A program made the translations under genes and the position numbers. Below, in pieces: positions 30,263 through 44,872 of a stretch of DNA of 64,000 nucleotides. Origin of the DNA: Bacillota bacterium (GTDB taxonomy: Bacteria; Bacillota; Clostridia; Oscillospirales; Oscillospiraceae). How positions within the stretch are numbered: the first letter of the stretch is position 1; every line of letters starts with the position of its first letter. The stretch is from assembly GCA_030529825.1 (NCBI GenBank), contig JAUMWD010000001.1, positions 100,935-164,934 on the forward strand, written 5' to 3'. The notes beneath the pieces were generated by a model that was given only the letters and a program-made list of their open reading frames with translations, did no database searches and had not been told where the DNA came from.

Positions 30263-30292
30263 TTGAGCAAAATCAAATAGAATAAATTTAAG

Positions 30293-30324
30293 AGCTCCCG
30301 CATCGAAAGATGCGGGAGCTTTTT
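30293..30324 (+). terminator. Terminator of groESL
   Basis: AGCTCCCGCATC-GAAA-GATGCGGGAGCT with a stable GAAA tetraloop, then Ts. Confidence 0.95.
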
Positions 30325-30389: not shown

Positions 30390-30418
30390 TTGACAAATTC
30401 GACAACACAATGTATAGT
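30390..30418 (+). promoter_or_regulatory. SigA promoter of the lipid gene cluster
   Basis: TTGACA (30390-30395), a 17-bp spacer and TATAGT (30413-30418). A second TATAAT at 30438-30443 has no good -35. The first gene begins at 30511, leaving a leader of about 85 bases. Confidence 0.7.
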
Positions 30419-30510
30419 GGAAACTGATATTTTGTATTATAATGTAGGCACAAAATAATGTGTTTTGCGAAAGACAGTTTTTTCTTACATATGTCAAAAG
30501 GAGTCGGACA

Positions 30511-30807
30511 ATGGAGTACCCGAAAGCTGCATTAAATGCTTCATATAAGGAAAAGTATATCTCGGTTCTTACGGAGTATCTTTCATCGCTGCGGGCAAAG
30601 GTCGGGGTAACACAGGAGGAGCTTTCTAAAATCATCGGCGTGTCCCGGCAGACTTATTATGCCATCGAGAACAGGAGCAGGGAAATGTCCTGGAGCATGT
30701 ATATGACGCTCATAATGTTTTTTGACACCAACGAGAAGACCCATGACATGCTGAGGACCATCGGCGCCTACCCTGATGAGCTCATGGCGCTTATAAAGCA
30801 GAAATAA
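30511..30807 (+). CDS. XRE-family helix-turn-helix regulator heading the lipid cluster
   Basis: A 98-residue DNA-binding protein with a Cro/C1-type helix-turn-helix at about residues 25-65 (LRAKVGVTQEELSKIIGVSRQTYYAIENR). A short helical tail follows (LIMFFDTNEKTHDMLRTIGAYPDELM). The start at 30511 is supported by AAAAGGAG seven bases upstream; an upstream in-frame ATG at 30460 has none. It is only 22 bases from the acyl-AMP ligase gene and under the cluster promoter, so it probably controls the cluster. Confidence 0.85.
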   Translation: MEYPKAALNASYKEKYISVLTEYLSSLRAKVGVTQEELSKIIGVSRQTYYAIENRSREMSWSMYMTLIMFFDTNEKTHDMLRTIGAYPDELMALIKQK

Positions 30808-30829
30808 ACAAGATAGGATTTCCGTAAGA

Positions 30830-32779
30830 ATGAAGAATAACACTCTGGGCGGTTACAAGACGGTTGACGCCTATGTAAGCGCAAAGCTGAAGCATTTCAA
30901 CTCACTGGAGCATAGCTTTGCCTCCATGTTTGAGGTGATGTTTTCGGAAAGAGAAAATATTATTTACGAAAAAAGCTGCGGCTATAAAATCGAATATGCA
31001 ACCTATGGTGAGGCCTGTGACCGGGCTGTCTCCTGCTCAAACCGTATCCGCAAGCTGGCAGGCGGACTCCATCACGATTCCGTAATCGGCCTGTACATGG
31101 AAAATGACATCAACTGGATTGTGGCCTTCTGGGCAATTCTCCGAAGCGGCTTCAGACCGCTCCTGCTGAATGCGAGACTGGGCGACGAAATCCTCTCCGC
31201 GGCCATGAAAAGCTGTGACACAAGGCTTGTAATCTCCGACGGCAAGGTGTTTGAGGGTGTCAGCACAGTGGTCTTTGACAAGTTAATGGGCGGTGTGGAG
31301 CCTGAAGAGTGCTGTGAGGACTTCGGCACAGAGGTGCTTATTATGTCCTCGGGAACAACCTCGAGTCCCAAAATATGCGCCTATACTCCGGAGGAATTCT
31401 ACTGCCTGATTAATGACAGCTATGATATTATCGCAAAGTGCGACCGCATACAAAAGTTCTATGAGGGCCAGATAAAGCTGCTGACCTTCCTGCCCTTTTA
31501 CCATATTTTCGGCCTTGTGGCCGTATATGTATGGTTTGCGTTTTTCGCAAGGACCTTTGTGCATCTCGGCGACTATTCCGCCCAGACGATTCTGAACACC
31601 ATTCGCAGGCATAAGGTAACTCATATCTTTGCCGTGCCGATGTTCTGGAACGAGGTATATAAGCAGGCCATAAAGACAATCAGGGACCGGGGCGAGGAAA
31701 CCTACGAGCGCTTCTGCAAGGGCATGGATATTGCGCGGCGCATCGGCGATGTACCCTTGATCGGCCAGCGCTTCATTCGCTCCGCCTTCAGTGAGGTGCG
31801 TGAAAACCTTTTCGGGGAAAGCATCAGCTTCATGATTACCGGCGGAAGCGAAATAAAGCCCGAGGTGCTGTCTTTCTTTAATCTCATCGGCTACCACCTT
31901 GCAAACGGCTACGGCATGACGGAAATCGGCATAACCTCCGTGGAGCTGAGCCCTAAACGGGAAATCCTCAATAAGGGGTTCGTGGGCAAGCCCCTGACCT
32001 CCGTTGAGTATTCAATCTCGGAAGAGGGAAGCCTGCTTGTCCGCGGCGGCTCCGTTGCGAAATATATTTTGGAGGACGGCAAAAGGCTTGAGCTCTCCGA
32101 TTGGTACGATACCCGCGACCTTGCCGAATGTGTTGACGGGCATTACAGAATTCTCGGACGCATGGACGATCTGGTAATCGCGGAAAACGGCGAAAACCTC
32201 AATCCCTGCTTGGTGGAGCCCTTGCTGACAGAGAATGACTCCTATCAACTCTGCCTTGTGGGTACCGTGAAAGACGGGGAAATCCTGCCCACGCTCCTTG
32301 TCTATGCCGGAAGCTATGTGACGGCTGAAAGGTACGAGACGGTGAGAGGAGAAATCCTTCGTCGCCTGCAGAAAAACTCCCTGTCGTCAATGATAAGAAA
32401 AATCCTGTTTGTGAAGAAACCGCTTGTTGACGCGGGAGATATAAAAATCAACAGAACTCGTCTCACGGAGCAGTATGCCTCGGGCAGCCTTGAAATTCTT
32501 GACCCGGAGAAAATCGCCGCCGCCGAGTGCGCTGAAAACGAGCTTGCGGATTATGTCAGAGCGCTGTTTGCCGCCGCGCTTGAGAAGCCTGCGGAGGAAA
32601 TCGGCATGGATGCGGATTTCTTCCTGGACGAGGGCGGCACGAGCCTCGACTATTTCGCCATGATTTCAAAAATTCAGGAAGACTATGCCGTGAGCTTTCC
32701 TGCAACACAGGAAAAAACCATGACAACAGTACGGGAGCTTTACAGCTTCATCGAGGAAACCCTAAAAAATGTGGATTAA
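30830..32779 (+). CDS. Acyl-AMP ligase fused to a C-terminal acyl carrier protein
   Basis: A 649-residue member of the ANL adenylating superfamily. The N-terminal ~550 residues have the phosphate loop MSSGTTSSPK, the GYGMTEIGITS motif, DTRDLAECVDGHYRILGRMDD and the catalytic Lys region DIKINRTRL. Residues about 570-645 are an acyl-carrier domain, with the phosphopantetheine-attachment Ser605 in DEGGTSLD. The likely reaction is ATP-dependent activation of a fatty acid and loading onto its own carrier domain. It overlaps the next gene by 11 bases. The ribosome site is weak (AGGA at 12 bases). The chain-length preference is unknown. Confidence 0.88.
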   Translation: MKNNTLGGYKTVDAYVSAKLKHFNSLEHSFASMFEVMFSERENIIYEKSCGYKIEYATYGEACDRAVSCSNRIRKLAGGLHHDSVIGLYMENDINWIVAFWAILRSGFRPLLLNARLGDEILSAAMKSCDTRLVISDGKVFEGVSTVVFDKLMGGVEPEECCEDFGTEVLIMSSGTTSSPKICAYTPEEFYCLINDSYDIIAKCDRIQKFYEGQIKLLTFLPFYHIFGLVAVYVWFAFFARTFVHLGDYSAQTILNTIRRHKVTHIFAVPMFWNEVYKQAIKTIRDRGEETYERFCKGMDIARRIGDVPLIGQRFIRSAFSEVRENLFGESISFMITGGSEIKPEVLSFFNLIGYHLANGYGMTEIGITSVELSPKREILNKGFVGKPLTSVEYSISEEGSLLVRGGSVAKYILEDGKRLELSDWYDTRDLAECVDGHYRILGRMDDLVIAENGENLNPCLVEPLLTENDSYQLCLVGTVKDGEILPTLLVYAGSYVTAERYETVRGEILRRLQKNSLSSMIRKILFVKKPLVDAGDIKINRTRLTEQYASGSLEILDPEKIAAAECAENELADYVRALFAAALEKPAEEIGMDADFFLDEGGTSLDYFAMISKIQEDYAVSFPATQEKTMTTVRELYSFIEETLKNVD

Positions 32780-33410
32780 GTTCTTTAACCTCTTTGCCAA
32801 AATCACCGGATGGCTTCTGCAGTGGTTTTGCTTTCGCACAAAAGTGTATTACGAAGATAAATCGGTGCAGGGACGGCATATTAAGGGCCGCGCCATTATA
32901 GTTTCAAACCACACCTCGGTGTATGACTACGCGGTGATGATGTTTGTGTTCATAACGCGAACGCTGCGTTACCAGATGGCGGAAATCCTGTTTGAGAAAA
33001 AGGGACTGAGAACTCTGCTGCGCTGGCTTGGCGGCATCTATGTGAACAGGAATAATCACGATTTGAGCTTTGTGAGAAAGTCCGTGGATATTCTTGATGC
33101 CGGCGGCGTTGTGGGCGTATTCCCCGAGGGAAGACTGCCACGCAAGGGAGAGGAAAGTCCGCTGCCCTTTGCCTCCAGCGTGACATATATTGCCCTGCAG
33201 TCAGGTGCGCCGATAATACCCGTTTACACAAACGGCTCCTATTTCTGCAAAAAGCGGGCAAGAGTCATTATCGGCAAGCCCATAGCTGCGGACGAGTTAG
33301 CTGACTCAAGCTTAACGGAAAAGGAAAATCTCCAACAGATAACCGAAAAGATACGGGAACGGATCAAGGAATTGGGGAAGGAATTAGATGAAAAAACCAA
33401 AAAGAGCTAA
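32769..33410 (+). CDS. PlsC-type 1-acyl-glycerol-3-phosphate acyltransferase, copy 1
   Basis: A 213-residue membrane-associated acyltransferase. The catalytic HX4D is His48-Asp53 (VSNHTSVYDYAVM), and the phosphate-binding motif is VFPEGRLPRKGE. It transfers an acyl chain from acyl-ACP, acyl-CoA or acyl-phosphate to a lysophospholipid or a related acceptor. A hydrophobic N-terminus (residues 1-22) anchors it. It overlaps both neighbours (11 and 23 bases). A second, divergent copy follows at once, so this pair probably has distinct acceptors rather than housekeeping roles. Confidence 0.9.
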   Translation: MWIKFFNLFAKITGWLLQWFCFRTKVYYEDKSVQGRHIKGRAIIVSNHTSVYDYAVMMFVFITRTLRYQMAEILFEKKGLRTLLRWLGGIYVNRNNHDLSFVRKSVDILDAGGVVGVFPEGRLPRKGEESPLPFASSVTYIALQSGAPIIPVYTNGSYFCKKRARVIIGKPIAADELADSSLTEKENLQQITEKIRERIKELGKELDEKTKKS

Positions 33411-34035
33411 ACTGTTTTCCCTGTCGTATCTCTTTTATGATATTACCAAGCTGATTGCGGCGCTGCCGGGATTGCTTGCCTTCAGACCGAAATATATATA
33501 CCAGAATAAAGCGGCGAGAAAACGCATACGCGGCGGAGCCGTACTCATAGGGAATCACACGGGCTTTTTCGACCCGGTGTATATGCAGTTCGGTGTTTGG
33601 TACAGGCGTCACCACTTCCTTTGCGCCAAGGAATTCTTTGATTCAAAGGCCAGATTTTTCTTTAAGAACTTCATGTGCATTCCCATAGACAGAGATAACT
33701 TCGGAATGGATACCTTTAGAGAAATCACAGAGCATCTGAAGCAGGGTGAGCTTGTGAGTATGTTCCCCGAGGGCAAAATAGAAAAGGAGCTGAACTCCTT
33801 TAAGTCGGGAATGGTTCTCATGGCGCTGCAGAGCGGTGCTCCCATAGTACCGATATATATAAAACCCAGAAAAACCGTATGGCACCGACTGGTGATGGCT
33901 ATCGGCGAGCCTGTGGATGTTGTTGAAATATGCGGAGGCAGCAGACCCTCATTTTCCAAGATAGAGAATGTAGCCGAGCTTCTGCATAATATTGAGGTGC
34001 AGTTAAAGGAAATGTGTGAGAAAGGGGATAAATAA
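33388..34035 (+). CDS. PlsC-type acyltransferase, copy 2
   Basis: A 215-residue acyltransferase of the same family as the preceding gene but clearly diverged. HX4D is His57-Asp62 (IGNHTGFFDPVY); the second motif is MFPEGKIEKELNSFKSG. It lacks the long N-terminal hydrophobic stretch of copy 1 and instead begins with a lysine-rich segment. The stop overlaps the next start by one base (TAATG). Its place between two acyl-AMP ligases suggests it uses acyl-ACP made by the cluster. Confidence 0.9.
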   Translation: MKKPKRAKLFSLSYLFYDITKLIAALPGLLAFRPKYIYQNKAARKRIRGGAVLIGNHTGFFDPVYMQFGVWYRRHHFLCAKEFFDSKARFFFKNFMCIPIDRDNFGMDTFREITEHLKQGELVSMFPEGKIEKELNSFKSGMVLMALQSGAPIVPIYIKPRKTVWHRLVMAIGEPVDVVEICGGSRPSFSKIENVAELLHNIEVQLKEMCEKGDK

Positions 34036-35549
34036 TGAAAACAATGCCCAGAGAAGTTTTTTCCAAGTACACAGAGCCGGAGACCTTTGAAAGAATCAAG
34101 GAGTATCCCTCCGTAAGCGCCATGTGGGAAAACTGCCTGCGTGAATTCGCTGATGTAACGGCAATCTGCGACAACGGCAGGGAATATACCTTTGCCGAGA
34201 CGGAAAAGGCCGCCGCGGCCTTCCGAACCGTGCTGTGCGAGGCTCATAAGGATGAATCCAAGCGTATCGGCATTTATTCCGCAAATTCCATTGACTTTGT
34301 AAAGGCCTTTCTTGCCATAACGACTTTAGGCTATACCGCAGTAATCCTTCCCGCCCAGCTTGATGCGGGAACGGTGTTTGGCTGCTGCATGAAATATAAT
34401 ATCGGAACTCTGGTGTATCAGCCCGAGCTTAAGCAGAATACCGCTGTTGCGGAGGAACGCTGTCCGGGCCTTGCCCTTGTGCCGGCGGATGCCCTTGCGG
34501 AGGAGCTTACGCCGCTTCGCCCCTGCGAAGCGGATACCCCCTGCGTGGTAATGTTTACCGGGGGAACCACGGGCAGAAGCAAGGGTGCACTGCTCTCCAA
34601 CGGCGCGGTGATGCAGGGCGTTGTGAATGGCTGCTACGGCTATCACGATGTGTTCAACCAGCGCTATATGCTGGTGCTGCCTCTTTCCCATGTCTTCGGC
34701 CTCATAAGAAATCTGCTGACATCCCTCTATACGGGCAGCACGATTTTCATCTGCCGCAATAATAAGGATGTTTTCCGTGACATTGCCGTTTTCCGCCCCA
34801 CCATATGGGTAGTGGTGCCTGCACTGGCGGAGATGGCACTGACGCTGTCTAAAAAATTCGGAAGAAATATGCTGGGCGCGGATATGAAGGTCATTATCTG
34901 CGGCGCCGCTGCCGTGTCCCCCTATCTTATTGAGGAATACCGCGAGCTCGGCATTACTCTGCTCCCGGGCTACGGCCTTACGGAGAGCGCAAATCTTGTC
35001 TCCGGCAACCCCGAAAGCCTTGAGAAGCCCGACTCCGTGGGTATCATGTACCCCAATCAGGAATATCGCGTTGAAAACGGCGAGCTGTGGCTTCGGGGCA
35101 GCAATATGCTGGAGTGCTACATCGGCGAGGACGAGGAGGCCTATACCGACGGATGGTTCCGCACCGGTGACCTTGTGCGCTTTGACGAGGAGGGCTTCAT
35201 GTATATCACGGGCCGCATTAAGGAGATAATTGTACTCTCCAACGGCGAAAATGTGTCTCCCGCAGAGGTGGAGGCGCAGTTTAACGCTCTGCCCTTTGTG
35301 CAGGACTCCCAGGTGTTTGAGGATGTAAATGAAAGCGGTGCTCATATCCTCGCCCTTGAGGTCGTGCCGCGCATGACGGAGCTGGGAAAGCTTCAGCTTC
35401 CCGACGCCAATGCCTATATGATGCAGGAGCTTGAGAGGGTAAATGCACAGCTTCCGGGCTTTGAGCGTGTGAACAGAATAGTCATCAGGGATACTGACTT
35501 TGCCAGAACTCCCAGCATGAAGATTGTGAGATATAAAAAATGCAACTGA
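34035..35549 (+). CDS. Acyl-AMP ligase / acyl-ACP synthetase, stand-alone
   Basis: A 504-residue ANL-family adenylating enzyme. Motifs: phosphate loop MFTGGTTGRSKGALLSN, GYGLTESANLVSG, FRTGDLVRFDEEGFMYITGR, and the C-terminal catalytic lysine in RTPSMKIVRYKK. Unlike the other ligase of the cluster it has no carrier domain, but a free ACP gene follows immediately with a ten-base overlap, so it probably loads that ACP with a fatty or other carboxylic acid. The substrate is not predictable by eye. Confidence 0.88.
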   Translation: MKTMPREVFSKYTEPETFERIKEYPSVSAMWENCLREFADVTAICDNGREYTFAETEKAAAAFRTVLCEAHKDESKRIGIYSANSIDFVKAFLAITTLGYTAVILPAQLDAGTVFGCCMKYNIGTLVYQPELKQNTAVAEERCPGLALVPADALAEELTPLRPCEADTPCVVMFTGGTTGRSKGALLSNGAVMQGVVNGCYGYHDVFNQRYMLVLPLSHVFGLIRNLLTSLYTGSTIFICRNNKDVFRDIAVFRPTIWVVVPALAEMALTLSKKFGRNMLGADMKVIICGAAAVSPYLIEEYRELGITLLPGYGLTESANLVSGNPESLEKPDSVGIMYPNQEYRVENGELWLRGSNMLECYIGEDEEAYTDGWFRTGDLVRFDEEGFMYITGRIKEIIVLSNGENVSPAEVEAQFNALPFVQDSQVFEDVNESGAHILALEVVPRMTELGKLQLPDANAYMMQELERVNAQLPGFERVNRIVIRDTDFARTPSMKIVRYKKCN

Positions 35550-35794
35550 ACAGAACAGAAATAATGGAGCGCCTCAGGGATATACTCCTCATGGCCGATG
35601 ACAGAAACACGGAGCTCATTGAGAGCTGCACAGAGGATTTTAAGCTGGTAACCGATTTGGGCCTGTCCTCCGTAGCTCTGCTTTATGTGGTAATCGCCAT
35701 TGAAGAGACCTTCGGCATAAGATTTGACAATGTGGGCATCGCGGATTTTGAAACCGTAAAGGATGTCGTGGACTTCATAGAGGAAAAGCTCTGA
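35540..35794 (+). CDS. Acyl carrier protein
   Basis: An 84-residue acidic carrier protein. The phosphopantetheine site is in DLGLSSVALL, with Ser44 at the position of the DSL serine; Ser replaces the usual Asp before it. Helix III and IV patterns (IEETFGIRF and TVKDVVDFIEEKL) are standard. It is separate from the fatty-acid synthase ACP, which would be elsewhere, and is sandwiched between an acyl-ACP synthetase and a phosphopantetheinyl transferase that likely activates it. TGATG overlap with the next gene. Confidence 0.9.
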   Translation: MQLNRTEIMERLRDILLMADDRNTELIESCTEDFKLVTDLGLSSVALLYVVIAIEETFGIRFDNVGIADFETVKDVVDFIEEKL

Positions 35795-36837
35795 TGAAAT
35801 GGTGGCCGGAAATCTGTGCTCCCGGGGACATGGTGCGTGTAAGCATCGGCTCGGTGAAGCATTACGGCATATTTGTAAGTGAAAATGAAATAATCCAGTT
35901 CGGACCGCCGCCCGTTTCTCTGAAGATAATGGAGAGCAGGGACATATGCGTCTGCACTGCCACGGCAGAGGAGTTTTCCTGCGGCAACATCATTGAGAGA
36001 GCCGTGCTGGACAAGAGCGAAAGCCGCAAGCGGATTCCCCCCGAAAAAACGGTGGAAATCGCAAGGTCGCGTCTGGGCGAAAAGGGCTACAGCCTTCTGC
36101 ACAACAACTGTGAGCATTTTGCCTATGAGTGCGTGTTCGGTGAAAAGCGAAGCTCTCAGGAGGAAGAGGCTCTTGCCCGATGGAAAAACAGACCGATTTT
36201 AGATGTGTATATTGCGCCTGTGCCGGAGGAGATAAATATTACTCCCGTGGCCTGCGCGGCGCGGGAGGCGGAGATACGCGGTACGAATAACGAAGAGCTC
36301 CGCGCTGCGAGATTCTTCGACTGGCAGGTGCTGCTGTATGCAGCCAACCGTTCCTTCGGCCTTCGGGAGGAGGAAATCAGCTTCAAAAAAGCCTCAAACG
36401 GAAAATGGAGCTGTGATAAATTCTTCTTCTCCCTTTCTCATACAAAGGGTGCGGTTGCCGTTGCCGTGTCAAACAGCAAGGTGGGCGTGGATATAGAGAA
36501 TGTGACGGAGTTTGAGAGAAAACCCGCATCCCGGGGAAAGCTCCGGAGAAATATGTTCAGAAGAATATGCACCGAGAGGGAAGCCCGAAGCATGGAGGAT
36601 AAGGATTTTCTCAAGCTTTGGCTCAAAAAAGAGAGCATATTCAAGTGCTTCGGGGACAGTGCGTCTCCGCTGAAGGTGGAAACAGGAGACCGTCCAGCGG
36701 AGGTCTTCGTATTGAAAAAATGTCCTGATTATATGTTTTGCGTTTGCGGCGAAAAATTACGCAGCGCAAGGTTCTACCTGTATGAAAACAATGCCGCCTG
36801 CGCGGTGAACTCCGAAATTGTGAAAAGCGAGTCGTAG
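35794..36837 (+). CDS. LRAT-like acyltransferase fused to a 4'-phosphopantetheinyl transferase
   Basis: A 347-residue two-domain protein. Residues 1-~125 match the lecithin:retinol acyltransferase (LRAT) family of permuted papain-like enzymes: GDMVRVSIGSVKHYGIFV with His23, then HNNCEHFAYECV with catalytic Cys106. Residues ~170-345 are a Sfp/AcpT-type 4'-phosphopantetheinyl transferase: FFSLSHTKGAVAVAVS, VGVDIENV (Asp233, Glu235) and FLKLWLKKESIFKCFG (Trp276, Lys279, Glu280). The second half would activate the two ACP domains of the cluster. The first half probably moves an acyl chain through a Cys thioester. I do not know this fusion from other systems. Confidence 0.88.
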   Translation: MKWWPEICAPGDMVRVSIGSVKHYGIFVSENEIIQFGPPPVSLKIMESRDICVCTATAEEFSCGNIIERAVLDKSESRKRIPPEKTVEIARSRLGEKGYSLLHNNCEHFAYECVFGEKRSSQEEEALARWKNRPILDVYIAPVPEEINITPVACAAREAEIRGTNNEELRAARFFDWQVLLYAANRSFGLREEEISFKKASNGKWSCDKFFFSLSHTKGAVAVAVSNSKVGVDIENVTEFERKPASRGKLRRNMFRRICTEREARSMEDKDFLKLWLKKESIFKCFGDSASPLKVETGDRPAEVFVLKKCPDYMFCVCGEKLRSARFYLYENNAACAVNSEIVKSES

Positions 36838-36839
36838 TG

Positions 36840-37784
36840 ATGACATTTGTGAATTGTCTGCTTGCAGCAGCGGGCATATATGTGCTGCTTGTTCTGGCGC
36901 CCAGTGCGGTGCTGTACAAAGTGGTATTTCGACGAAAAAACGGAATAATGTTTACCGACAGGGATTTGAGCAAGACCTATCTCAGCGGCTGCGCCGATAA
37001 AATGTGTGAGGATATAGAGCACTTTCGGAAGCTGGAATATGAGCCTGTGTCCGTGACGGTGCCTGACGGCACGGAGCTGAAGGGCCATTATTACTCCCTG
37101 GGCGGAGACAAGCTGGCGATTTGTTTTCACGGCTACGGCTCAACAACCCTGAATTGCTTTGCCACCATGGGACGGTTTCTCCGGAGCCGTGGCTACGACC
37201 TGCTCATGCCTGTTGAACGCGGCCACGGTGAAAGCGGCGGTAAATGCTCGACTCTGGGTGTGCTGGAGCAATACGATGTGAAAAAATGGGTGGAATGGGC
37301 CTGCGAAAGAGACGGAATCGAAAAAATCGTCGTTGCGGGCGTGTCCATGGGTTGCGTAGCTGCAGCCTACGCCTCCGATGCCATCTGCGGCGGGAAAGTA
37401 AAAGCCCTGATTCTTGACTGCGGCTATACATCACCCTATAATCAGGTGATTCAGGACTGCAAAAAGAGACATCTTCCGTACAGACTTATGATGCCTGTTA
37501 TAAGTACCTGTGCAAAAATATTTGACGGTCTTGAGCTTAAGGAGCCCGTTTGGACGCACCTTGAGCGCACCACAATTCCCGCCCTGTTCATCCACGGCGG
37601 AGGCGATGAGACCGTTCCCCTGAAGGAAACGAAAATTAACTATGAGCATTGCGCCTCACCGAAACGGCTGTATATTGCCCCGGAGGCAAATCATGCAAAC
37701 GCCTTCCTCACCGGAGGAAAGGAAGCAGAGAACGCAATGAAAGAGTTTCTTGATTGTTATGTAGAAAGAAGGTATGAAGTATGA
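36840..37784 (+). CDS. Membrane-anchored alpha/beta hydrolase, serine type
   Basis: About 314 residues. One N-terminal membrane helix (~3-28) is followed by an alpha/beta hydrolase domain: oxyanion region CFHGYGSTTLN, nucleophile elbow VSMGC, acid region HGGGDETVPL and the catalytic His in EANHANAF. The family includes lysophospholipases and esterases. An ATG at 36840 is preferred over the GTG at 36837, which overlaps the preceding stop; neither has a strong ribosome site, so coupling to the upstream gene is likely. The stop overlaps the DegV start (ATGA). Confidence 0.85.
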   Translation: MTFVNCLLAAAGIYVLLVLAPSAVLYKVVFRRKNGIMFTDRDLSKTYLSGCADKMCEDIEHFRKLEYEPVSVTVPDGTELKGHYYSLGGDKLAICFHGYGSTTLNCFATMGRFLRSRGYDLLMPVERGHGESGGKCSTLGVLEQYDVKKWVEWACERDGIEKIVVAGVSMGCVAAAYASDAICGGKVKALILDCGYTSPYNQVIQDCKKRHLPYRLMMPVISTCAKIFDGLELKEPVWTHLERTTIPALFIHGGGDETVPLKETKINYEHCASPKRLYIAPEANHANAFLTGGKEAENAMKEFLDCYVERRYEV

Positions 37785-38722
37785 GCAAATTCGCGATTAT
37801 GGCCGATGCCGCCTGTGACCTGTCGGAGGAATTGCGTAAACAGTATGATGTAGAGGTCATAGCTGCTCACCTAACTCTCCCTGATGGCAGAGAGATTTCG
37901 GCAATGCCGGAGTGGGAGCATTTTACCCGTGAGGAGTTTTACTCGGCTCTCAAAAGAAATCCCGAAGGCTTTACCACAGCACCTCCCAACATTTCCGAAT
38001 TTGCCGATGCCTTTGAGCGCCATGTGTCCCAAGGGCATGAGCTTCTGTGCATAACACTCTCCGAGGGTATAAGCGGAACCTACAATTTCGCTCTTGCGGC
38101 GAAAAAGAATGTGCTTGAAAAATATCCCCATGCAAGGATTGAGGTAGTGGATTCCAGACGCTTCGGTCCTGCCATCGGACTTATGGTTGTCCGTGCCGCC
38201 CTGATGAGAGACCAGGGGAAGAGCATTGACGAGGTAACGGCATATCTTGAGGAGAATAAAAACTGCTTCCGCCAGGCAGGCTGGCTGGACGACCTTTCCT
38301 TTGTGGCAAAGAAGGGAAGGATTACCCATTCAAAGGCATTCCTCGGCGCTCTTGCTGGAGTCAAGCCCATCGGCGAGTTTGACTATAACGGCCTTACCAC
38401 GGTAATCGGCAAGGTCAAGGGCGCAAAGACGGCCTATTCCGTACTTCTTAAGTATATTGAAAAGACCATTGTTGATCCCTCCGAGCAGATAATCTTCATC
38501 GCCCAGACAAACCGTCTTGAGCAGGCCAAGGCCTATAAGGCCATGATTGAGGAAAAATTCAAGCCAAAGGCGGTGCTGATAAATGATGTATACTGCGTCT
38601 GCGGCGTAAATGTGGGCCCGGGCCTGATGGCTGCATATTATGTGGGAAAGCCCATATCCTCCGATCTTGAGGAAGAAAGAAGAATAATTGACACAGCTTT
38701 GAGCGAGGGAACAGAAAGATGA
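37781..38722 (+). CDS. fakB: DegV-family fatty-acid-binding protein, FakB-like
   Basis: A 313-residue DegV protein. In Firmicutes, DegV proteins of this size (FakB) hold a free fatty acid while FakA phosphorylates it to acyl-phosphate. The fold pattern is complete: MADAACDLSEEL at the N-terminus, LSEGISGTYNFA, VVDSRRFGPAIGL and the C-terminal pocket. The fatty-acid carboxylate loop reads FTTAPPN (63-70) where most FakB proteins have TSQPS, so the usual Ser is Thr or Ala and the ligand may differ. The FakA gene is in the same cluster. ATGA overlaps on both sides. Confidence 0.85.
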   Translation: MSKFAIMADAACDLSEELRKQYDVEVIAAHLTLPDGREISAMPEWEHFTREEFYSALKRNPEGFTTAPPNISEFADAFERHVSQGHELLCITLSEGISGTYNFALAAKKNVLEKYPHARIEVVDSRRFGPAIGLMVVRAALMRDQGKSIDEVTAYLEENKNCFRQAGWLDDLSFVAKKGRITHSKAFLGALAGVKPIGEFDYNGLTTVIGKVKGAKTAYSVLLKYIEKTIVDPSEQIIFIAQTNRLEQAKAYKAMIEEKFKPKAVLINDVYCVCGVNVGPGLMAAYYVGKPISSDLEEERRIIDTALSEGTER

Positions 38723-40053
38723 AAAAGATAAAGGGAAAAGGCAAGGTAATGCTGTATGCCGTCTCCGGCATGGGCGTTAATATGCTCAACCTCATGGTGG
38801 GCTCATATTTGTGCAGCGCACTGCTCATTGGCGGCTTCGGCAAGGATGTAATTCCCTTCCAGACCTACGCCCAGAGAGATTTGATAATTCCCGCTGTGTG
38901 GGCAATCTTCGCCCTTGCGGCAAAGATACTGGACGGCATTATAGATATTCCCATGGCGTCGCTGACGGACAGACTTAAAACACGCTGGGGCAGAAGACGC
39001 CCCTCCATACTCATCGGTCTTGTGATGACCGTGGCGGCATATTTGCTGTTCCTCGTCATTCCCGATGCCGGAGGCGCAAGCATGCTCAATACCGTTTACT
39101 ACGGAATTGTACTCTGCGTTTTCTATTGCTCTTATACGCTGACAATGGTAACCTACTATGCTACATATACCGAAATCGTGGAAACAACAGAGGAGAGAAA
39201 CCTTCTTTCCAATGTAAAATCCGTGTGTGACATAGTGTACTTTATCCTGGGCTATGTAGTGGTCAGAATGCTGCTCAACGGCATTAATGTCCGCACTGTG
39301 GCACTCATGGTTCTGCCCATGTCTCTCACAATGCTGATTCCCATCTTTATGATTAAGGAAAAATCCAGCCTTGCAGATGCTGATGAGGCTGTGGAAACCG
39401 TGAATCTTGTCAAGTCGCTGAGACTGACCTTTAAGAATAAGCCCTTTATCATTTGGATGCTTGTTTACTCCTTCATGACCTTTGGCGTTCAGCTCTTCCT
39501 GGGCGGCATCAACGAGTATTTCTCCTATGTGGGAATGAATATGATTTTTGTCATGATGTCGGCCTTTGCCCCCGTGCCCTTTACGCTGATTATCTATAAC
39601 AGGATCATCAAAAAGCACGGCTTCGGAGCCGCCTTCCGTTATGTTTTGGTGGTGTATTCCGTGTCCATGGCTCTCATGGGCCTTGTGGGCTTCATGGAAC
39701 AGGGAATCGCAAAAACGATTTTGTCCATTGTGTCCGGTCTCGTGGGCTCCTTCGCAATCGGCGCTCTGTTCGCGGTGGCCTATGCCGTACCCTCCCAGCT
39801 TGCCGCCGATGAGGAAAAGAAAACCGGAATTTCCAACTCCGCAATGTATTTTGCGGTGCAGGGCCTGTTCGCCGGTATAGCAACCGGCATCGGCACGGGC
39901 ATCGTGCTGACGGCCCTCAAGGGCAGCGAATCAAATCCCACCGGCGCGATTAGATATATGACTCTTATCTGCGCCGCGGCCTGCGTTGCTGCTCTTGTCT
40001 TTACAAAACTGCTTCCCGAATCTATAATTGATATGGGTAAAAAAGAAAGCTGA
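38719..40053 (+). CDS. MelB/MFSD2-type MFS transporter, candidate lysolipid or fatty-acid carrier
   Basis: A 444-residue, twelve-helix transporter of the GPH:cation symporter (MFS_2) family, with the loop motif TDRLKTRWGRRRPSILIG after helix 2. Members carry sugars (MelB), but the same family contains vertebrate MFSD2A, which moves lysophosphatidylcholine. Here it is translationally coupled to FakB (ATGA overlap) and 14 bases from FakA, with no sugar gene near. An acylated or lipid substrate is the simplest reading of the context, comparable to LplT beside Aas in E. coli. Confidence 0.85.
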   Translation: MKKIKGKGKVMLYAVSGMGVNMLNLMVGSYLCSALLIGGFGKDVIPFQTYAQRDLIIPAVWAIFALAAKILDGIIDIPMASLTDRLKTRWGRRRPSILIGLVMTVAAYLLFLVIPDAGGASMLNTVYYGIVLCVFYCSYTLTMVTYYATYTEIVETTEERNLLSNVKSVCDIVYFILGYVVVRMLLNGINVRTVALMVLPMSLTMLIPIFMIKEKSSLADADEAVETVNLVKSLRLTFKNKPFIIWMLVYSFMTFGVQLFLGGINEYFSYVGMNMIFVMMSAFAPVPFTLIIYNRIIKKHGFGAAFRYVLVVYSVSMALMGLVGFMEQGIAKTILSIVSGLVGSFAIGALFAVAYAVPSQLAADEEKKTGISNSAMYFAVQGLFAGIATGIGTGIVLTALKGSESNPTGAIRYMTLICAAACVAALVFTKLLPESIIDMGKKES

Positions 40054-40067
40054 CTCCGGAGAAATAG

Positions 40068-41720
40068 ATGAACACAAGGAAAATCAACGGGCTTCATATG
40101 GAGAAAATGCTCCGTAACGGCCTGGCAAATCTGTGTCTGTATGAAAAAGAACTGAATAGCCTGAATGTGTTTCCGGTTGCTGACGGAGATACGGGCACCA
40201 ATATGCGAATCACCCTTGAAAGCAGCCTGCGTGCGGCAAAGAGCACGGCCTCCATGGGTGCCTATCTGCGTTCCCTCACCGATGCCATGCTTTATGGCGC
40301 CCGGGGGAATTCCGGCGTTATTCTGTCCCAGATTTTCAGAGGAATATTTGCGGCACTGTCACGGTGCGGCGGCGTGAATGTCATTGAGATGAGAAATGCG
40401 CTCATCAGCGGCTATAAAACCGCATACTCTGCGGTGGTGCGCCCTGTGGAGGGAACAATTCTCACCGTATCAAGAGAGGGCATCGAGTATATAAAGAGTC
40501 AGATTGACCGCAATACGACCTTTGAAGAGCTGCTGAATCTGTATATCGTTGAAATGCGCCGAAGCCTTGCCCGTACTCCGGAAATACTACCCCAGCTGAA
40601 GGAAGCCGATGTGGTCGACAGCGGAGCCATGGGCTATATTGTCATTGTTGAGGGTATGCTCCGATATCTCAACGGCGATGTGCTTACTGATTCCGTTCCC
40701 GAGGAAGCCCATCGGACCAATACGCAGTTTACCGCCGATGTATCTCTTTTCAATGAAAATACCGTGTTTGCCAGCGGCTATTGCGTGGAGTTCATTCTCC
40801 AGCTCATGTGCGGCAAGCAGTATTCCCGTAACTTCAATATTAACCGCTTTATTAATGACCTTCAGGACTACGGCGGCTCAATAGTTGCCGTGCAGAACGG
40901 AAAGCGAGTTAAGGTGCATATCCATACCTTCAAGCCTGCAAGAGTTCTGTCTCTGGCACAGGAATTCGGCGAATTTGTTACCTGCAAGGTGGAGAATATG
41001 CAGCTTCAGCATAATTCTCTCATTAAGGAAAAGCCTGCACCGGCCCGTAAGCGCACGGAATTCGCCGTTATTTCCGTGGCGGACAGCGAGAGAATGCGCA
41101 TAGTGCTCCACGATCTGGGCAGCGCATATGTAATAATGGGCGGAGCAAAAATGAGCGTCTCCGTTCAGGACTTTGTGGAAGCCATAAAAACCGTTAATGC
41201 GGATAATGTGGTGATTTTGCCCAATAACGGAAATCTCGTAGGCGCGGCCCGGCAGGCAAAGGAGCTGTATAAGGACAGCAGTGTAACGGTTCTGGATACC
41301 CATACAATACCCCAGGGCTACAGCGCTCTTGCCATGGATATTGTGGACGAAAAGGATTGCAATGTCCGCATAAGACAGATGAAAATGGGCATGAACGGAG
41401 TTGAAACCCTTTCCGTTACGACTGCCGGCAAGGATTATCACAGCGAGGATGTGAGCTGCTCTGCGGGAATGCAGATCGCGGTAAGCGACGGAAAGCTCCT
41501 GTGCGCGGGAGATGAAGCGGAAACCGTATTTTGTGACGGACTGAAGCTGATTCCCGATGTTGACGAAATGGAAACCTGCATAGTTTTCCGGGGTGAAGGC
41601 AAGGGCGAGGAGCTGGAGGAAAAGCTTGAAAAGCGCATAGCCGGGCTGTTCCCCATGCTTGAGGTCAGCTTTGTTGACGGCGGCTCGACGCTTTATAAAT
41701 GGACAGCGGCCATATCCTGA
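40068..41720 (+). CDS. fakA: Fatty-acid kinase catalytic subunit FakA (DAK2/DegV-type)
   Basis: A 550-residue kinase matching FakA in length and order. The N-terminal DAK2 ATP-binding domain has NVFPVADGDTGTNM (Asp39, Asp41 for Mg2+) and GARGNSGVILSQIFRG. The middle domain has GYCVEFILQL and VKVHIHT, matching the Cys and His-x-His of FakA. The C-terminal domain binds FakB. It phosphorylates FakB-bound fatty acid to acyl-phosphate for PlsX/PlsY or direct use. Fourteen bases after the transporter gene, so it is in the same operon. A housekeeping FakA is often elsewhere; whether this is the only copy is unknown. Confidence 0.92.
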   Translation: MNTRKINGLHMEKMLRNGLANLCLYEKELNSLNVFPVADGDTGTNMRITLESSLRAAKSTASMGAYLRSLTDAMLYGARGNSGVILSQIFRGIFAALSRCGGVNVIEMRNALISGYKTAYSAVVRPVEGTILTVSREGIEYIKSQIDRNTTFEELLNLYIVEMRRSLARTPEILPQLKEADVVDSGAMGYIVIVEGMLRYLNGDVLTDSVPEEAHRTNTQFTADVSLFNENTVFASGYCVEFILQLMCGKQYSRNFNINRFINDLQDYGGSIVAVQNGKRVKVHIHTFKPARVLSLAQEFGEFVTCKVENMQLQHNSLIKEKPAPARKRTEFAVISVADSERMRIVLHDLGSAYVIMGGAKMSVSVQDFVEAIKTVNADNVVILPNNGNLVGAARQAKELYKDSSVTVLDTHTIPQGYSALAMDIVDEKDCNVRIRQMKMGMNGVETLSVTTAGKDYHSEDVSCSAGMQIAVSDGKLLCAGDEAETVFCDGLKLIPDVDEMETCIVFRGEGKGEELEEKLEKRIAGLFPMLEVSFVDGGSTLYKWTAAIS

Positions 41721-41735
41721 CAGCGAGGTGATTTT

Positions 41736-42686
41736 ATGAGTACGGAAATGCTTGTGATCCTTATTGTGCTGGCGGCGGTTCTGCTTTTGTTTGTCGGCCC
41801 TGTGGCTGTGCTGTCATATATTCTTTACAGAATCCTGCTGGTGCGTACGGGACCCGAAAAATGGGGCCGCGAGTGCAGCCTGCCCGAGGATGAAGAATAT
41901 AAACGGATGTTTGATATAGGCATCCGGTGGTTTGAAAATAACAAAGACACAAAGCATGATGTGTCAATTGTCAGTGACGGATATAGGCTGGCGGGCGAAT
42001 ACTTTGATTTCGGCTATGACAAGGCGGTAATAGTAATACCGGGACGAATGGAATCCTGTATTTACTCCTACTATTTTGCCGAGCCCTATGTAAAAGCAGG
42101 CTATAATGTCCTTGCCATTGATAACAGAGCCCATGGCCTGTCGGAGGGACGCCGCTGCAGCCTGGGATATAAGGAATACCGGGATATAATCAACTGGAGC
42201 AAGTACCTGCATGACGGGGAGAATGTTAACACCGTTGTGCTCCACGGAATTTGCATCGGCGCATCCACCGCGCTGTTTGCGCTTACGGCGGATGACTGTC
42301 CGGATTACATCAAGGGCATGGTGGCAGAGGGAATGTATACCACCTTTGCCGAATCCTTCAAAAACCATATGATTGTGGATAAGCACCCGCTGTTCCCCAT
42401 ATTTTATGCTGCGATGCTGCAGGTACGCCTGCTGTCGGGGGCAAATGTGGTGTCTGACGGCCCCATAAAGCGTATAGACCGGCTGACAAAGCCCATCCTT
42501 TTCCTGCACAGTAAGGAGGACTGCTTCTCCCTGCCGGATAAGGCGCAGCTGCTTTACGAAAAATGCACCGCCCCAAAGACCATGGAGTGGTTCGAGGTGG
42601 GCTCCCATTCAAGAATCCGTATAAACAATACGGAAAAATATGATAAGGCGATTTTGAAATTTGTCGAAGAAACCAAAAATTTATAA
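41736..42686 (+). CDS. Membrane-anchored alpha/beta hydrolase with Cys at the nucleophile position
   Basis: 316 residues: an N-terminal membrane helix (~5-28), then an alpha/beta hydrolase fold related to the hydrolase at 36840. The nucleophile elbow is HGICIGAS, with Cys in place of Ser, as in dienelactone hydrolases. Acid and histidine regions are HSKEDCFSLPD and GSHSRIR. A Cys nucleophile could favour acyl transfer over hydrolysis. GAGGTG precedes the ATG at eight bases. Last gene of the continuous run; only 15 bases from fakA. Confidence 0.85.
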   Translation: MSTEMLVILIVLAAVLLLFVGPVAVLSYILYRILLVRTGPEKWGRECSLPEDEEYKRMFDIGIRWFENNKDTKHDVSIVSDGYRLAGEYFDFGYDKAVIVIPGRMESCIYSYYFAEPYVKAGYNVLAIDNRAHGLSEGRRCSLGYKEYRDIINWSKYLHDGENVNTVVLHGICIGASTALFALTADDCPDYIKGMVAEGMYTTFAESFKNHMIVDKHPLFPIFYAAMLQVRLLSGANVVSDGPIKRIDRLTKPILFLHSKEDCFSLPDKAQLLYEKCTAPKTMEWFEVGSHSRIRINNTEKYDKAILKFVEETKNL

Positions 42687-42689
42687 TAT
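42661..42689 (+). promoter_or_regulatory. Possible promoter of the zinc-ribbon gene pair
   Basis: TTGTCG (42661-42666), 17 bp, TAATAT (42684-42689), followed by further TATAAT-like repeats to 42703. The -35 lies inside the end of the hydrolase gene. Confidence 0.4.
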
Positions 42690-42723
42690 AATATATAATA
42701 TAAAGTTTTAAGGAGGTAACACT

Positions 42724-43134
42724 ATGAACTGCAAGAATTGCGGAGCACCTCTTGCCGAAGGAACAAAGTTCTGCCATAGCTGCGGAGCCGAAGTCGCGGA
42801 AGAGGTAGTACAGCCTCGATACGAGGCACAGCCCCAGTGCCAGCCGTCTATCGTCGTACAGCCCCAGTATCAGCGGCCCTTCACCGAGCAGGATTTGCCC
42901 GAGCAGTACCGTCCCTTGAGCGCATGGGCCTATTGGGGACTGTCTATTCTCTACATGGTACCCATTGTGGGATTCGTTTTCATGATTGTTTTTTCCTTCA
43001 ATAGCGGAAATATCCATCGGAGAAACTTCACCAGATCCTTCTGGTGCTGGTACATTATTATTGCCGTTGTATGCATAATCTCTATTGCCGTAGGCGGCGG
43101 ATTTTTGGCAGCGGTGGCTTATGACTTATATTAA
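42724..43134 (+). CDS. Zinc-ribbon membrane protein, copy 1
   Basis: A 136-residue protein. The N-terminus is a zinc ribbon (CKNCGAPLAEGTKFCHSCG), followed by a Gln/Pro-rich linker and two membrane helices (~75-100 and ~108-130). The gene at 43181 has the same layout and the same AGGAGGTAAC ribosome site, so the pair arose by tandem duplication. The ribbon probably faces the cytosol. Proteins of this type are abundant in Clostridia with unknown roles. Confidence 0.82.
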   Translation: MNCKNCGAPLAEGTKFCHSCGAEVAEEVVQPRYEAQPQCQPSIVVQPQYQRPFTEQDLPEQYRPLSAWAYWGLSILYMVPIVGFVFMIVFSFNSGNIHRRNFTRSFWCWYIIIAVVCIISIAVGGGFLAAVAYDLY

Positions 43135-43180
43135 TCTGTAATCAAATCAATAATTAATCAAAAATTCAGGAGGTAACATT

Positions 43181-43636
43181 ATGAATTGTAAACATTGCGG
43201 AGCGTTCCTTCCCGAAGGAACAAAGTTCTGCCCCAGCTGCGGGACTGAAGTAGTGGAAGAGGTAGTACAGCCCCAGTATAATGCTGTGCCACAGTACGAT
43301 GTACAGCCCCAGTATCAGCAGTATGTAGGCTATGAAGCACCTGCATATGACCAGACTGAACGGGCAGCAAGCGCCAAATCTGCTTTGACCTGGGGTATCC
43401 TCGGTCTGGCATTTGCCGTCAGCTTCTATCTCAGCTTCCTGGGAATCATCTTCTCAGCCATTGCGAAGAACAAGGTAAAAGCATACGTTGCGGCCTTCGG
43501 CGAGCCTACAGCGAAGGTTAAGACCGGCAACGGTCTCGCCACCGGCGGCCTTATTGCAGGCATTGTTCTTACCGTGCTGCTGGTTATATTTATCATCGCA
43601 GTTGCAGGCGCTGCATCTATCGACTACTATTATTAA
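43181..43636 (+). CDS. Zinc-ribbon membrane protein, copy 2
   Basis: A 151-residue relative of the preceding gene: zinc ribbon CKHCGAFLPEGTKFCPSCG, a Gln/Tyr-rich linker, then two membrane helices with the DUF4190-like order GILGLAFAVSFYLSFLGIIF ... GLATGGLIAGIVLTVLL. AGGAGG lies nine bases upstream. A terminator follows at 43665. Its function is not known; the link to the lipid genes is only positional. Confidence 0.82.
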   Translation: MNCKHCGAFLPEGTKFCPSCGTEVVEEVVQPQYNAVPQYDVQPQYQQYVGYEAPAYDQTERAASAKSALTWGILGLAFAVSFYLSFLGIIFSAIAKNKVKAYVAAFGEPTAKVKTGNGLATGGLIAGIVLTVLLVIFIIAVAGAASIDYYY

Positions 43637-43664
43637 TCAGCTGAGCATCAAGAAAACAAAAATA

Positions 43665-43692
43665 AGGGAAGCGTTTCCGCTTCCCTGTTTTT
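43665..43692 (+). terminator. Rho-independent terminator
   Basis: AGGGAAGCG-TTTC-CGCTTCCCT, then a T-run. It ends the gene run that begins at 30511, apart from the last hydrolase. Confidence 0.9.
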
Positions 43693-43762: not shown

Positions 43763-44845
43763 ATGCTTTCAAATAAATGTTGTTTGAAGAAGAGCAGCAT
43801 AACAAAAAAGGTGCTGACTATGGGAACTGTCACCGTGGTATCCCTGGTTGTGCTTTCCGTGGTCTCCTCGGCTGTTATTTTCAATGCGGTATTCCAGCGC
43901 AGAACGGTGAGCCCCTATGAGCTCATCATGAGCTATTCCGACAGTGAGGCGGAGAATTATCCCCGGAGGCAGCTCTCCTTTATGTCGGGAGAAAAGCTGC
44001 TGAAGGGATATGTCTACGGAGAGCAGAATCAAAAAGGAATTATCATAATTGCAAACGGCTTCAATGCAGGAGCGTCGGGCCATCTCGGGGAGGTTTTTTA
44101 CTTCGCCGACAAGGGCTGGACAGTGCTCGCCTTTGACGGAACGGGAGTCGGCGACAGCCAGGGCGACAGCGTCGTGGGACTTGAGCAGATGCGCCTTGAT
44201 GTGCTGGCGGCCATGGATTATATTAAGACGGACGAAGCCTTGTGCGAGCTGCCTGTTTTCCTTTACGGACACAGTGCGGGAGGATATGCGGCGGCAACGC
44301 TGTGCAATGACGAGCGAGTCAGCGCAGTTGTCAGCATATCCGGCTTTGATTCGCCTTTAGATACCATGCGCTTTTACGCGGCAAAATATGTGGGCGTTTT
44401 TGCGGATGTGGAATATCCCTTTATTCAGCTGTATGACCGTTACCGCTTCGGAGAAAACGGAGGCATAAGGGCGACGGAGCAGCTGTCGGAGTCAAAGCAT
44501 CCCGTGATGATCGTTCAGGGCTCGGAGGATGAAACCATACCCTATGAGCTGAGTATATATGCCGCCTGCGAGGATGAAAACTATGATAATGTGCGCTGTG
44601 TTCTCGTTGATGAAGAATACAGAAACCACCATTCCACGATCTGGCTTAAGGCTGCCTCGGCGGAGAAGCTTCTGGAAATCAAGAGCTACAAGGACGAGAT
44701 GTTGGATACCTATGGCCATGAGCTTCCCGATGAGGTTGAGGAAGCTCTCATAGCCAATGCGGCAGCAGCCGATGGGCTTCTCAAGGATGTAAACGAGGAT
44801 TTTCTCGGAGAGGTGTCCCGCTTCTTCGAAGAAACAATAAAATAA
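43763..44845 (+). CDS. Membrane-anchored alpha/beta hydrolase, third in the region
   Basis: A 360-residue single-helix (~18-42) alpha/beta hydrolase. Motifs: IANGFNAGASGHLGE, DGTGVGDSQGD, nucleophile elbow GHSAGG, GSEDETIPYEL and a late His pair in YRNHHSTIW. A charged helical tail of ~60 residues follows. It lies just after the terminator at 43665 and so is probably transcribed on its own. Like the hydrolases at 36840 and 41736 it could be a lipase, lysophospholipase or thioesterase. Confidence 0.83.
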   Translation: MLSNKCCLKKSSITKKVLTMGTVTVVSLVVLSVVSSAVIFNAVFQRRTVSPYELIMSYSDSEAENYPRRQLSFMSGEKLLKGYVYGEQNQKGIIIIANGFNAGASGHLGEVFYFADKGWTVLAFDGTGVGDSQGDSVVGLEQMRLDVLAAMDYIKTDEALCELPVFLYGHSAGGYAAATLCNDERVSAVVSISGFDSPLDTMRFYAAKYVGVFADVEYPFIQLYDRYRFGENGGIRATEQLSESKHPVMIVQGSEDETIPYELSIYAACEDENYDNVRCVLVDEEYRNHHSTIWLKAASAEKLLEIKSYKDEMLDTYGHELPDEVEEALIANAAAADGLLKDVNEDFLGEVSRFFEETIK

Positions 44846-44872
44846 AAAACCGCAGGAAATCCTGCGGTTTTT
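44845..44872. terminator. Bidirectional terminator
   Basis: AAAAACCGCAGGA-AA-TCCTGCGGTTTTT between convergent genes. Confidence 0.92.

Follow-up and report, generated by a model that had tools for sequence, protein, structure and literature searches.

The window analyzed here, a 64,000-nucleotide stretch of a Bacillota bacterium genome (contig JAUMWD010000001.1, positions 100,935 to 164,934), encodes on its + strand, at 30508-43636, a compact set of 14 genes, 11 of which form a lipid-handling core according to open reading frames (ORFs) and Pfam/NCBIfam domains. We consider it fairly probable that this operon serves fatty-acid-auxotrophic Clostridia as a module for scavenging acyl chains and re-assembling lipids. 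The interpretation draws on direct observations: the content and conservation of the gene set, the preservation of active-site motifs, the co-inheritance of the genes and their co-occurrence with the loss of fatty acid synthesis.

Gene content and borders of the operon

The first gene, for an XRE-type regulator (30508-30807; PF01381, E = 3.7e-8; ATG start, with an alternative GTG at 30460), is followed by the core, which opens with LigACP, a 649-aa acyl-adenylating ligase with a C-terminally fused acyl carrier protein (ACP) (30830-32779; PF00501, 2.1e-38; PF00550, 1.9e-9). Two members of the lysophosphatidic acid (LPA) acyltransferase family, PlsC1 (32769-33410; PF01553, 9e-21) and PlsC2 (33388-34035; PF01553, 1.4e-21), a second acyl-adenylating ligase, Lig2 (34035-35549; PF00501, 8.8e-53), and a stand-alone ACP (35540-35794; PF00550, 1.4e-5) precede a fusion of an LRAT/PLAAT domain with an Sfp-type (ACPS-type) phosphopantetheinyl transferase (PPTase) (35794-36837; PF04970, 4.5e-16; PF01648, 4.8e-8). 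The core continues with ABH1, an alpha/beta hydrolase with a serine nucleophile (36837-37784; PF12146, 3.8e-15), a FakB-like, putatively fatty-acid-binding protein of the DegV family (37781-38722; PF02645, 1.3e-59), an MFS_2 transporter (38719-40053; PF13347, 4.2e-32) and a FakA-like fatty acid kinase with Dak2, FakA_M and FakA_C domains (40068-41720; YloV TIGR03599, 4.5e-143, above cut-off), and ends with ABH2, a membrane-anchored protein of the alpha/beta hydrolase fold with a cysteine nucleophile (GxCxG; 41736-42686; PF12146, 4.7e-13). Two accessory membrane proteins, the zinc-ribbon protein ZR1 (42724-43134; PF13240, 4.2e-7) and the zinc-ribbon/DUF4190 protein ZR2 (43181-43636; PF13240, 4e-6), complete the set. 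An initial annotation of the window had named these genes with their place, strand and domains, and all were recovered as described.

Its further proposal of one promoter-driven unit is supported by the sequence signals. Most neighbors overlap or are separated by short gaps, with intergenic spacing of about -23 to +46 nt from the XRE gene to ZR2. The upstream border is formed by a strong terminator-like stem-loop after groEL (30290-30323, +; 15 pairs, loop of 4, T-rich tail) and by a promoter-like site, TTGACA-17-TATAGT (30390-30418, +), which agrees with the consensus at 11/12 positions as a consensus match only, and the downstream border by a strong stem-loop of 9 pairs after ZR2 (43665-43686, +). 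All terminator candidates between the two stems are weak. Three promoter-like matches in the region tie for the best score (11/12), the site at 30390 among them; the other two, at 37414 and 40000, are intragenic and, as consensus matches only, could be internal starts. No Rfam family was matched by the leader in a search for an RNA regulator. Beyond the downstream terminator lies a third alpha/beta hydrolase gene (43763-44845, +) with its own terminator (44845-44872), which probably constitutes a separate unit; in a number of the related loci (e.g. L121, L139, L145 and L158) its relatives lie immediately before LigACP.

Conservation of the core

Related loci were identified by scanning the LigACP alignment A1 against 84,980 species genomes, which returned 335 relatives; the best 80 of the 335 were used for locus comparisons, and 57 loci, those with 10.5 kb or more of contig beyond the LigACP start, were considered testable. 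Nearly all of the 80 loci belong to metagenome-assembled genomes (MAGs) of Clostridia, chiefly from collections of gut genomes of ruminants and other herbivores, a distribution in which catalogue bias is uncontrolled. Within the host's order, a LigACP relative was found in 24 of 394 genomes, and its surroundings carry the same genes. The exact order LigACP-PlsC1-PlsC2-Lig2-ACP-LRAT-ABH1-DegV-MFS-FakA-ABH2 recurs in 24 of the 57 testable loci, and the scattering of these genes in relatives that the initial annotation had set as grounds for refutation was not seen. LigACP, PlsC1 and PlsC2 are present in all 57 testable loci, the ACP in 54, LRAT in 51, MFS in 45, and FakA and DegV in 44. Among the 19 loci in which ten of the genes are full-length, mean pairwise protein identity ranges from 38 to 67% per gene, and the distance matrix of every gene correlates with that of LigACP (all Mantel p <= 0.002; 19 complete loci). 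Co-inheritance of the core genes is thus confirmed, and the recurrence of the same order exceeds chance.

The flanking genes behave differently. Clustering of the flanking ORFs gave no recurrent genes beyond the core other than zinc-ribbon proteins, which occur in only 19 loci, and relatives of ZR2 stand after the core in some loci. No relative of the XRE gene was detected upstream of the 80 related loci in a single-sequence search, which very distant helix-turn-helix genes could escape, and an ancestral XRE regulator was rejected as a member of the unit. Hence, the XRE and zinc-ribbon genes, which had been included in the originally proposed unit, are not part of its core, and the remaining 11 genes are. 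Also rejected was the LRAT-PPTase fusion as a marker of the cluster, since a search for its relatives returned only stand-alone PPTases without a cluster. The ligase-ACP fusion is a good marker of the cluster and the LRAT-PPTase fusion a poor one.

The arrangement of the window defines class A, part of which carries an LRAT protein lacking the PPTase half; in one carrier (G345, locus L057) LRAT stands alone and a separate PPTase is encoded elsewhere in the genome. Class B loci (e.g. L058, L059, L134, L144 and L147) read LigACP-MFS-PlsC1-PlsC2-Lig2-ACP-LRAT-PPTase, have no Fak genes nearby and encode an MFS protein that is longer at its C-terminus by a membrane extension of roughly 200 aa. In L058 the cluster directly follows LicD and other surface-polysaccharide-type genes (L058 2728-3606). 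Class C (L140, L150, L153-L155, L157 and L161) lacks Lig2 and MFS; in the genomes of L140, L150 and L153, a single frame encodes a protein of 796-801 aa that contains two ketoacyl synthase domains. Class D (L060-L064) comprises LigACP, PlsC1, PlsC2, ACP, ABH2, two DegV proteins and FakA, with LRAT in most loci, and a further type (L065-L068) combines DegV, FakA, MFS, LigACP, PlsC1 and ABH2. In L060 and L064, PlsX adjoins FakA in a FakB-FakB-FakA run, and a polysaccharide deacetylase with DUF3473 adjoins ABH2; a second copy of PlsX occupies the FakA-adjacent place in five class-D-type genomes. The cluster-borne PlsX beside FakB-FakB-FakA ties the kinase arm of the system to acyl-ACP.

Loss of fatty acid synthesis in operon carriers

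The host genome (1.93 Mb, 96.6% complete) contains no ketoacyl synthase at E<=1e-3, and no FabA/FabZ was found in it; both were detected in three relatives that possess a ketoacyl synthase. In the host, rnc comes immediately after plsX, with smc and ftsY further along, and fabD, fabG and acpA, which stand between plsX and rnc in B. subtilis, are absent from this run. Retained outside the operon are one PlsX, a housekeeping ACP near yidC/jag/rnpA and a second FakA copy beside asp23 (G000:C28), which is 32% identical to the operon FakA. The same loss is observed among carriers, which mostly lack fatty acid synthesis: a ketoacyl synthase (E<=1e-10) is present in none of the 14 close carriers in the host's order, as against 204 of the 394 genomes of that order, and is missing in 44/50 genomes of a second carrier set (44/46 once class C is excluded). 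A ketoacyl synthase is present in four genomes (G145, G152, G233 and G316) whose LigACP relatives are distant and have no Fak genes in their vicinity. In the order as a whole, 190/394 genomes lack the enzyme at E<=1e-10, so that its loss seems widespread beyond operon carriers. Loss of fatty acid synthesis is also known in the RF39 gut bacteria, for which Fak-type incorporation has been proposed (PMC6784871).

Within the host genome, the LRAT-PPTase is the only match to PF01648 (ACPS family), in a search that is not fully sensitive: it fails to detect a PPTase in G020, a genome with both ketoacyl synthase and FabZ, as well as the PPTase of the G241 fusion, for which reason sole-PPTase status is not claimed. 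TIGR00516 matches almost nothing in these genomes. The initial annotation had spoken of a private PPTase activating private ACPs; the enzyme is indeed present, and the term private may misname it, since it is the only ACPS-family match in the genome and there is a housekeeping ACP that it would have to serve.

Outside the operon, 15 kb upstream, the window encodes a secreted neutral ceramidase with a signal peptide and C-terminal S-layer (SLH) domains (12595-15417, +). Anchored by these domains, it could release fatty acids from ceramides at the cell surface, as would fit scavenging.

Catalytic residues and predicted folds

To judge from their sequences, the enzymes look active, with catalytic residues kept in essentially all loci. 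LigACP retains K539, R542 and the ACP serine S605 in 77/77 sequences, Lig2 its catalytic Lys and Arg in 53/53, and the stand-alone ACP its prosthetic-group Ser in 64/64. The HX4D motif is kept in PlsC1 (67/67) and PlsC2 (65/65); in NCBIfam each of them scores best against PRK08633 (Aas type), and the sole solved-structure match of their joint profile is T. maritima PlsC (5KYM). FakA keeps its DGD and HIH motifs (44/44). The DegV protein scores above the cut-off of its family, and matches the FakB1 equivalog model at 2.2e-35 with 122 bits against a cut-off of 350.

The LRAT-PPTase model (AlphaFold, pLDDT 90) matches PLAAT and Sfp/AASDHPPT structures. Its LRAT domain preserves the PLAAT His23 and the NCEHF Cys (H23 and C106 in 58/58), and at the position of the third PLAAT triad residue, His35, the 58 sequences show Gln (40), Ala (16), Ser (1) or Glu (1). 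HRASLS1 likewise departs from His at this position, with Asn (PMC4624172). The PPTase half adopts an ACPS fold, matches 1QR0 at 2.9e-12 and conserves residues of the catalytic D...E/WxxKE..K pattern, with E280 in 33/33, K284 in 32/33 and D233 in 32/33 sequences.

The GxSxG-Asp-His residues of ABH1 are kept across loci, and those of ABH2 (C173, D262 and H291) are invariant in A4 and present in 42/45, 45/45 and 44/45 sequences, respectively, in all loci. The Ser/Cys exceptions fall in L100, L110, L112 and L141, which we read as loci that lack one of the two hydrolases, its partner having been picked in its place. The ABH2 model (pLDDT 91) shows a hydrolase fold matching esterases and monoacylglycerol lipases. 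Among proteins of this fold, dienelactone hydrolase and polyhydroxyalkanoate (PHA) synthase also have a cysteine nucleophile, which is compatible with acyl transfer, and, on the basis of this residue, ABH2 may transfer acyl groups rather than hydrolyze them. The MFS_2 protein, with D72, D76 and K401 in 35/35 sequences, gives its best profile match to a solved structure with MFSD2A (7MJS, 5.4e-7), ahead of melibiose permease (0.098); its resemblance to this lysolipid symporter supports the lysolipid option.

Proposed function and alternative explanations

From these data we infer what the proposed scavenging module acts on, which way its transporter works and what it makes. The MFSD2A-like MFS_2 protein would import lysolipids or similar single-chain amphiphiles, while free fatty acids would cross the membrane, and acyl chains would be freed or taken from the imported lipids by the serine enzyme ABH1 and perhaps by the cysteine-type LRAT/PLAAT domain. 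Activation could follow two routes. In the kinase route, FakB and FakA would produce acyl-phosphate for the housekeeping PlsX/PlsY or, in one variant, for the cluster-borne PlsX; in the ligase route, the two ligases would produce acyl-ACP on the fused and separate ACPs, converted to their holo form by the PPTase half of the LRAT fusion. PlsC1 and PlsC2 would then load the chains onto lysophosphatidic acid, lysolipids or a related acceptor, possibly helped by ABH2 and LRAT as cysteine acyltransferases. A bolder version of this scheme, which we hold only tentatively, is that the operon represents an undescribed lipid-assembly route permitting Clostridia to do without fatty acid synthesis by means of lysolipid import and the loading of scavenged chains onto dedicated ACPs, with the cysteine-type ABH2 and LRAT as new bacterial acyltransferases that build a distinctive membrane lipid.

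Several observations speak against a scavenging role. The difference between 0/14 close carriers and 204/394 genomes of the order (Fisher p=2.8e-5) is uncorrected for phylogeny; six of the 50 carriers in the second set (L090, L149 and four class C loci) have a ketoacyl synthase; MAGs can miss genes, and this second set comes without completeness values. Two genomes of the host's genus, G001 and G005, lack both the operon and a ketoacyl synthase, so the operon appears as one option, not a necessity, for life without fatty acid synthesis. Two ligases in addition to FakAB look redundant for simple scavenging. As for the transporter, the alignment with MFSD2A spans both halves of the protein, and the match is weak (32 bits) and falls mainly on residues 62-185; moreover, MFS_2 proteins mostly carry sugars.

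Some of the same observations favor the main rival explanation, in which the unit makes not bulk membrane but one special lipid from scavenged chains, such as a glycolipid or phospholipid with an additional acyl chain or a lipid N-acylated by LRAT. Phosphatidic acid synthesis needs less than a pair of ligases, a pair of ACPs and as many as four acyl-transfer enzymes (two PlsC, LRAT and ABH2), housekeeping FakA, PlsX and ACP are available in the same genome, and genomes of the host's genus that lack synthesis do without the operon. The polysaccharide deacetylase of variant loci and the one locus beside LicD and surface-polysaccharide-type genes point the same way. Against a dedicated special lipid stand the strong association of the operon with the loss of fatty acid synthesis and the absence from the core of head-group enzymes, glycosyltransferases and other tailoring genes; we consider this explanation rather unlikely, at perhaps one chance in a few.

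Much less probable is a two-substrate pathway for a lipid-like natural product exported by the MFS protein, although a stand-alone adenylating enzyme, an ACP and a dedicated Sfp-type PPTase are a typical start for such a pathway and the ligase-ACP fusion resembles loading modules (its PDB matches include McyG and gramicidin synthetase). Ketosynthase, condensation and tailoring genes are absent from every variant, FakA/FakB and two PlsC indicate glycerolipids, and conservation is stable over many lineages, unlike that of most natural-product clusters. The initial annotation had left open whether the unit takes up, activates and transfers fatty acids or lysolipids or makes a natural product; its gene content is consistent with acyl activation and transfer, and since carriers mostly lack fatty acid synthesis, scavenging and lipid assembly are favored over the natural product. 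Least probable of all is a catabolic or detoxification unit that activates and sequesters toxic free fatty acids or bile-type amphiphiles, for although inhibitory fatty acids are abundant in rumen and gut and the operon has hydrolases and a transporter, the core lacks beta-oxidation, a reductase and an export pump, and detoxification does not predict the loss of fatty acid synthesis.

A scavenging module would be of interest beyond this genome. Fatty acid synthesis seems to be absent from many uncultured Clostridia of gut and rumen, and the building of a membrane without it has been raised as a question for RF39 gut bacteria (PMC6784871). The operon would predict which lipids its carriers need, and hence offer a direct handle on their growth via fatty acids or lysolipids, and it may bear on the fate of dietary lipids in ruminants. 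It also supplies two study objects, an MFSD2A-like transporter from bacteria and a naturally occurring fusion of LRAT with a PPTase. Apart from these subjects, the window contains a 443-aa open frame (20993-22321, - strand) without a match in Pfam (E<=1e-5) or NCBIfam (E<=1e-3).

Comparison with known systems

The FakAB-PlsX-PlsY-PlsC pathway for exogenous fatty acids is established in Gram-positive bacteria (PMC10146087). The operon shares with it FakA, an ACP and PlsC family members, and has a FakB-like DegV protein; its FakA has the Dak2, middle (His motif) and C-terminal domains, and PlsX is found outside the operon in the host and inside the unit in class D. Unlike that pathway, it gathers these functions in one operon and adds two ligases, the LRAT-PPTase, MFS_2 and two hydrolases. 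To our knowledge, the known FakAB pathway includes no ligase and no dedicated lysolipid-type transporter, and known fak genes are not so clustered. In the LplT-Aas system of E. coli, lysophospholipids are re-acylated by a transporter, a PlsC-type acyltransferase and an acyl-ACP synthetase, of which PRK08633 is the fused form. The operon has the same part list of transporter, PlsC, ligase and ACP, but its PlsC and ligase are separate genes, with two of each, the Aas models score far below cut-off, and its transporter is of the MFS_2/GPH type, nearest to MFSD2A rather than to LplT. It also goes beyond LplT-Aas in having its own ACPs, a PPTase, a kinase arm and hydrolases.

Individual components likewise combine familiar and divergent traits. 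The LRAT domain shares with PLAAT/HRASLS proteins an NlpC/P60-like fold (target-normalised TM of 0.70-0.79 to most PLAAT entries), the active-site His and the NCEHF Cys, and differs from PLAAT/LRAT proteins in being bacterial, fused to an Sfp-type PPTase and without a membrane anchor, and in the replacement of the PLAAT3 His35. The sodium-dependent lysophosphatidylcholine symporter MFSD2A is the best solved-structure profile match for the operon MFS_2, which is distant from it in sequence and, in class B, carries the additional C-terminal membrane extension. A ligase and alpha/beta hydrolases of similar families, together with the DUF3473 deacetylase of class D, recall the exosortase-A-associated set (TIGR03098, TIGR03100 and TIGR03101), but all scores are far below the curated cut-offs. 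In contrast to polyketide synthase (PKS) and nonribosomal peptide synthetase (NRPS) clusters, the unit has no ketosynthase or condensation enzyme. No described cluster of this content was known to the initial annotation, and a full-text search of open-licence papers, which is weak evidence of absence, found no published description of it. The operon is new in uniting the FakAB-PlsX-PlsC and LplT-Aas logics, and also in its fusion of LRAT with a PPTase, its duplication of the ligase/ACP and PlsC pairs and its cysteine-type ABH2.

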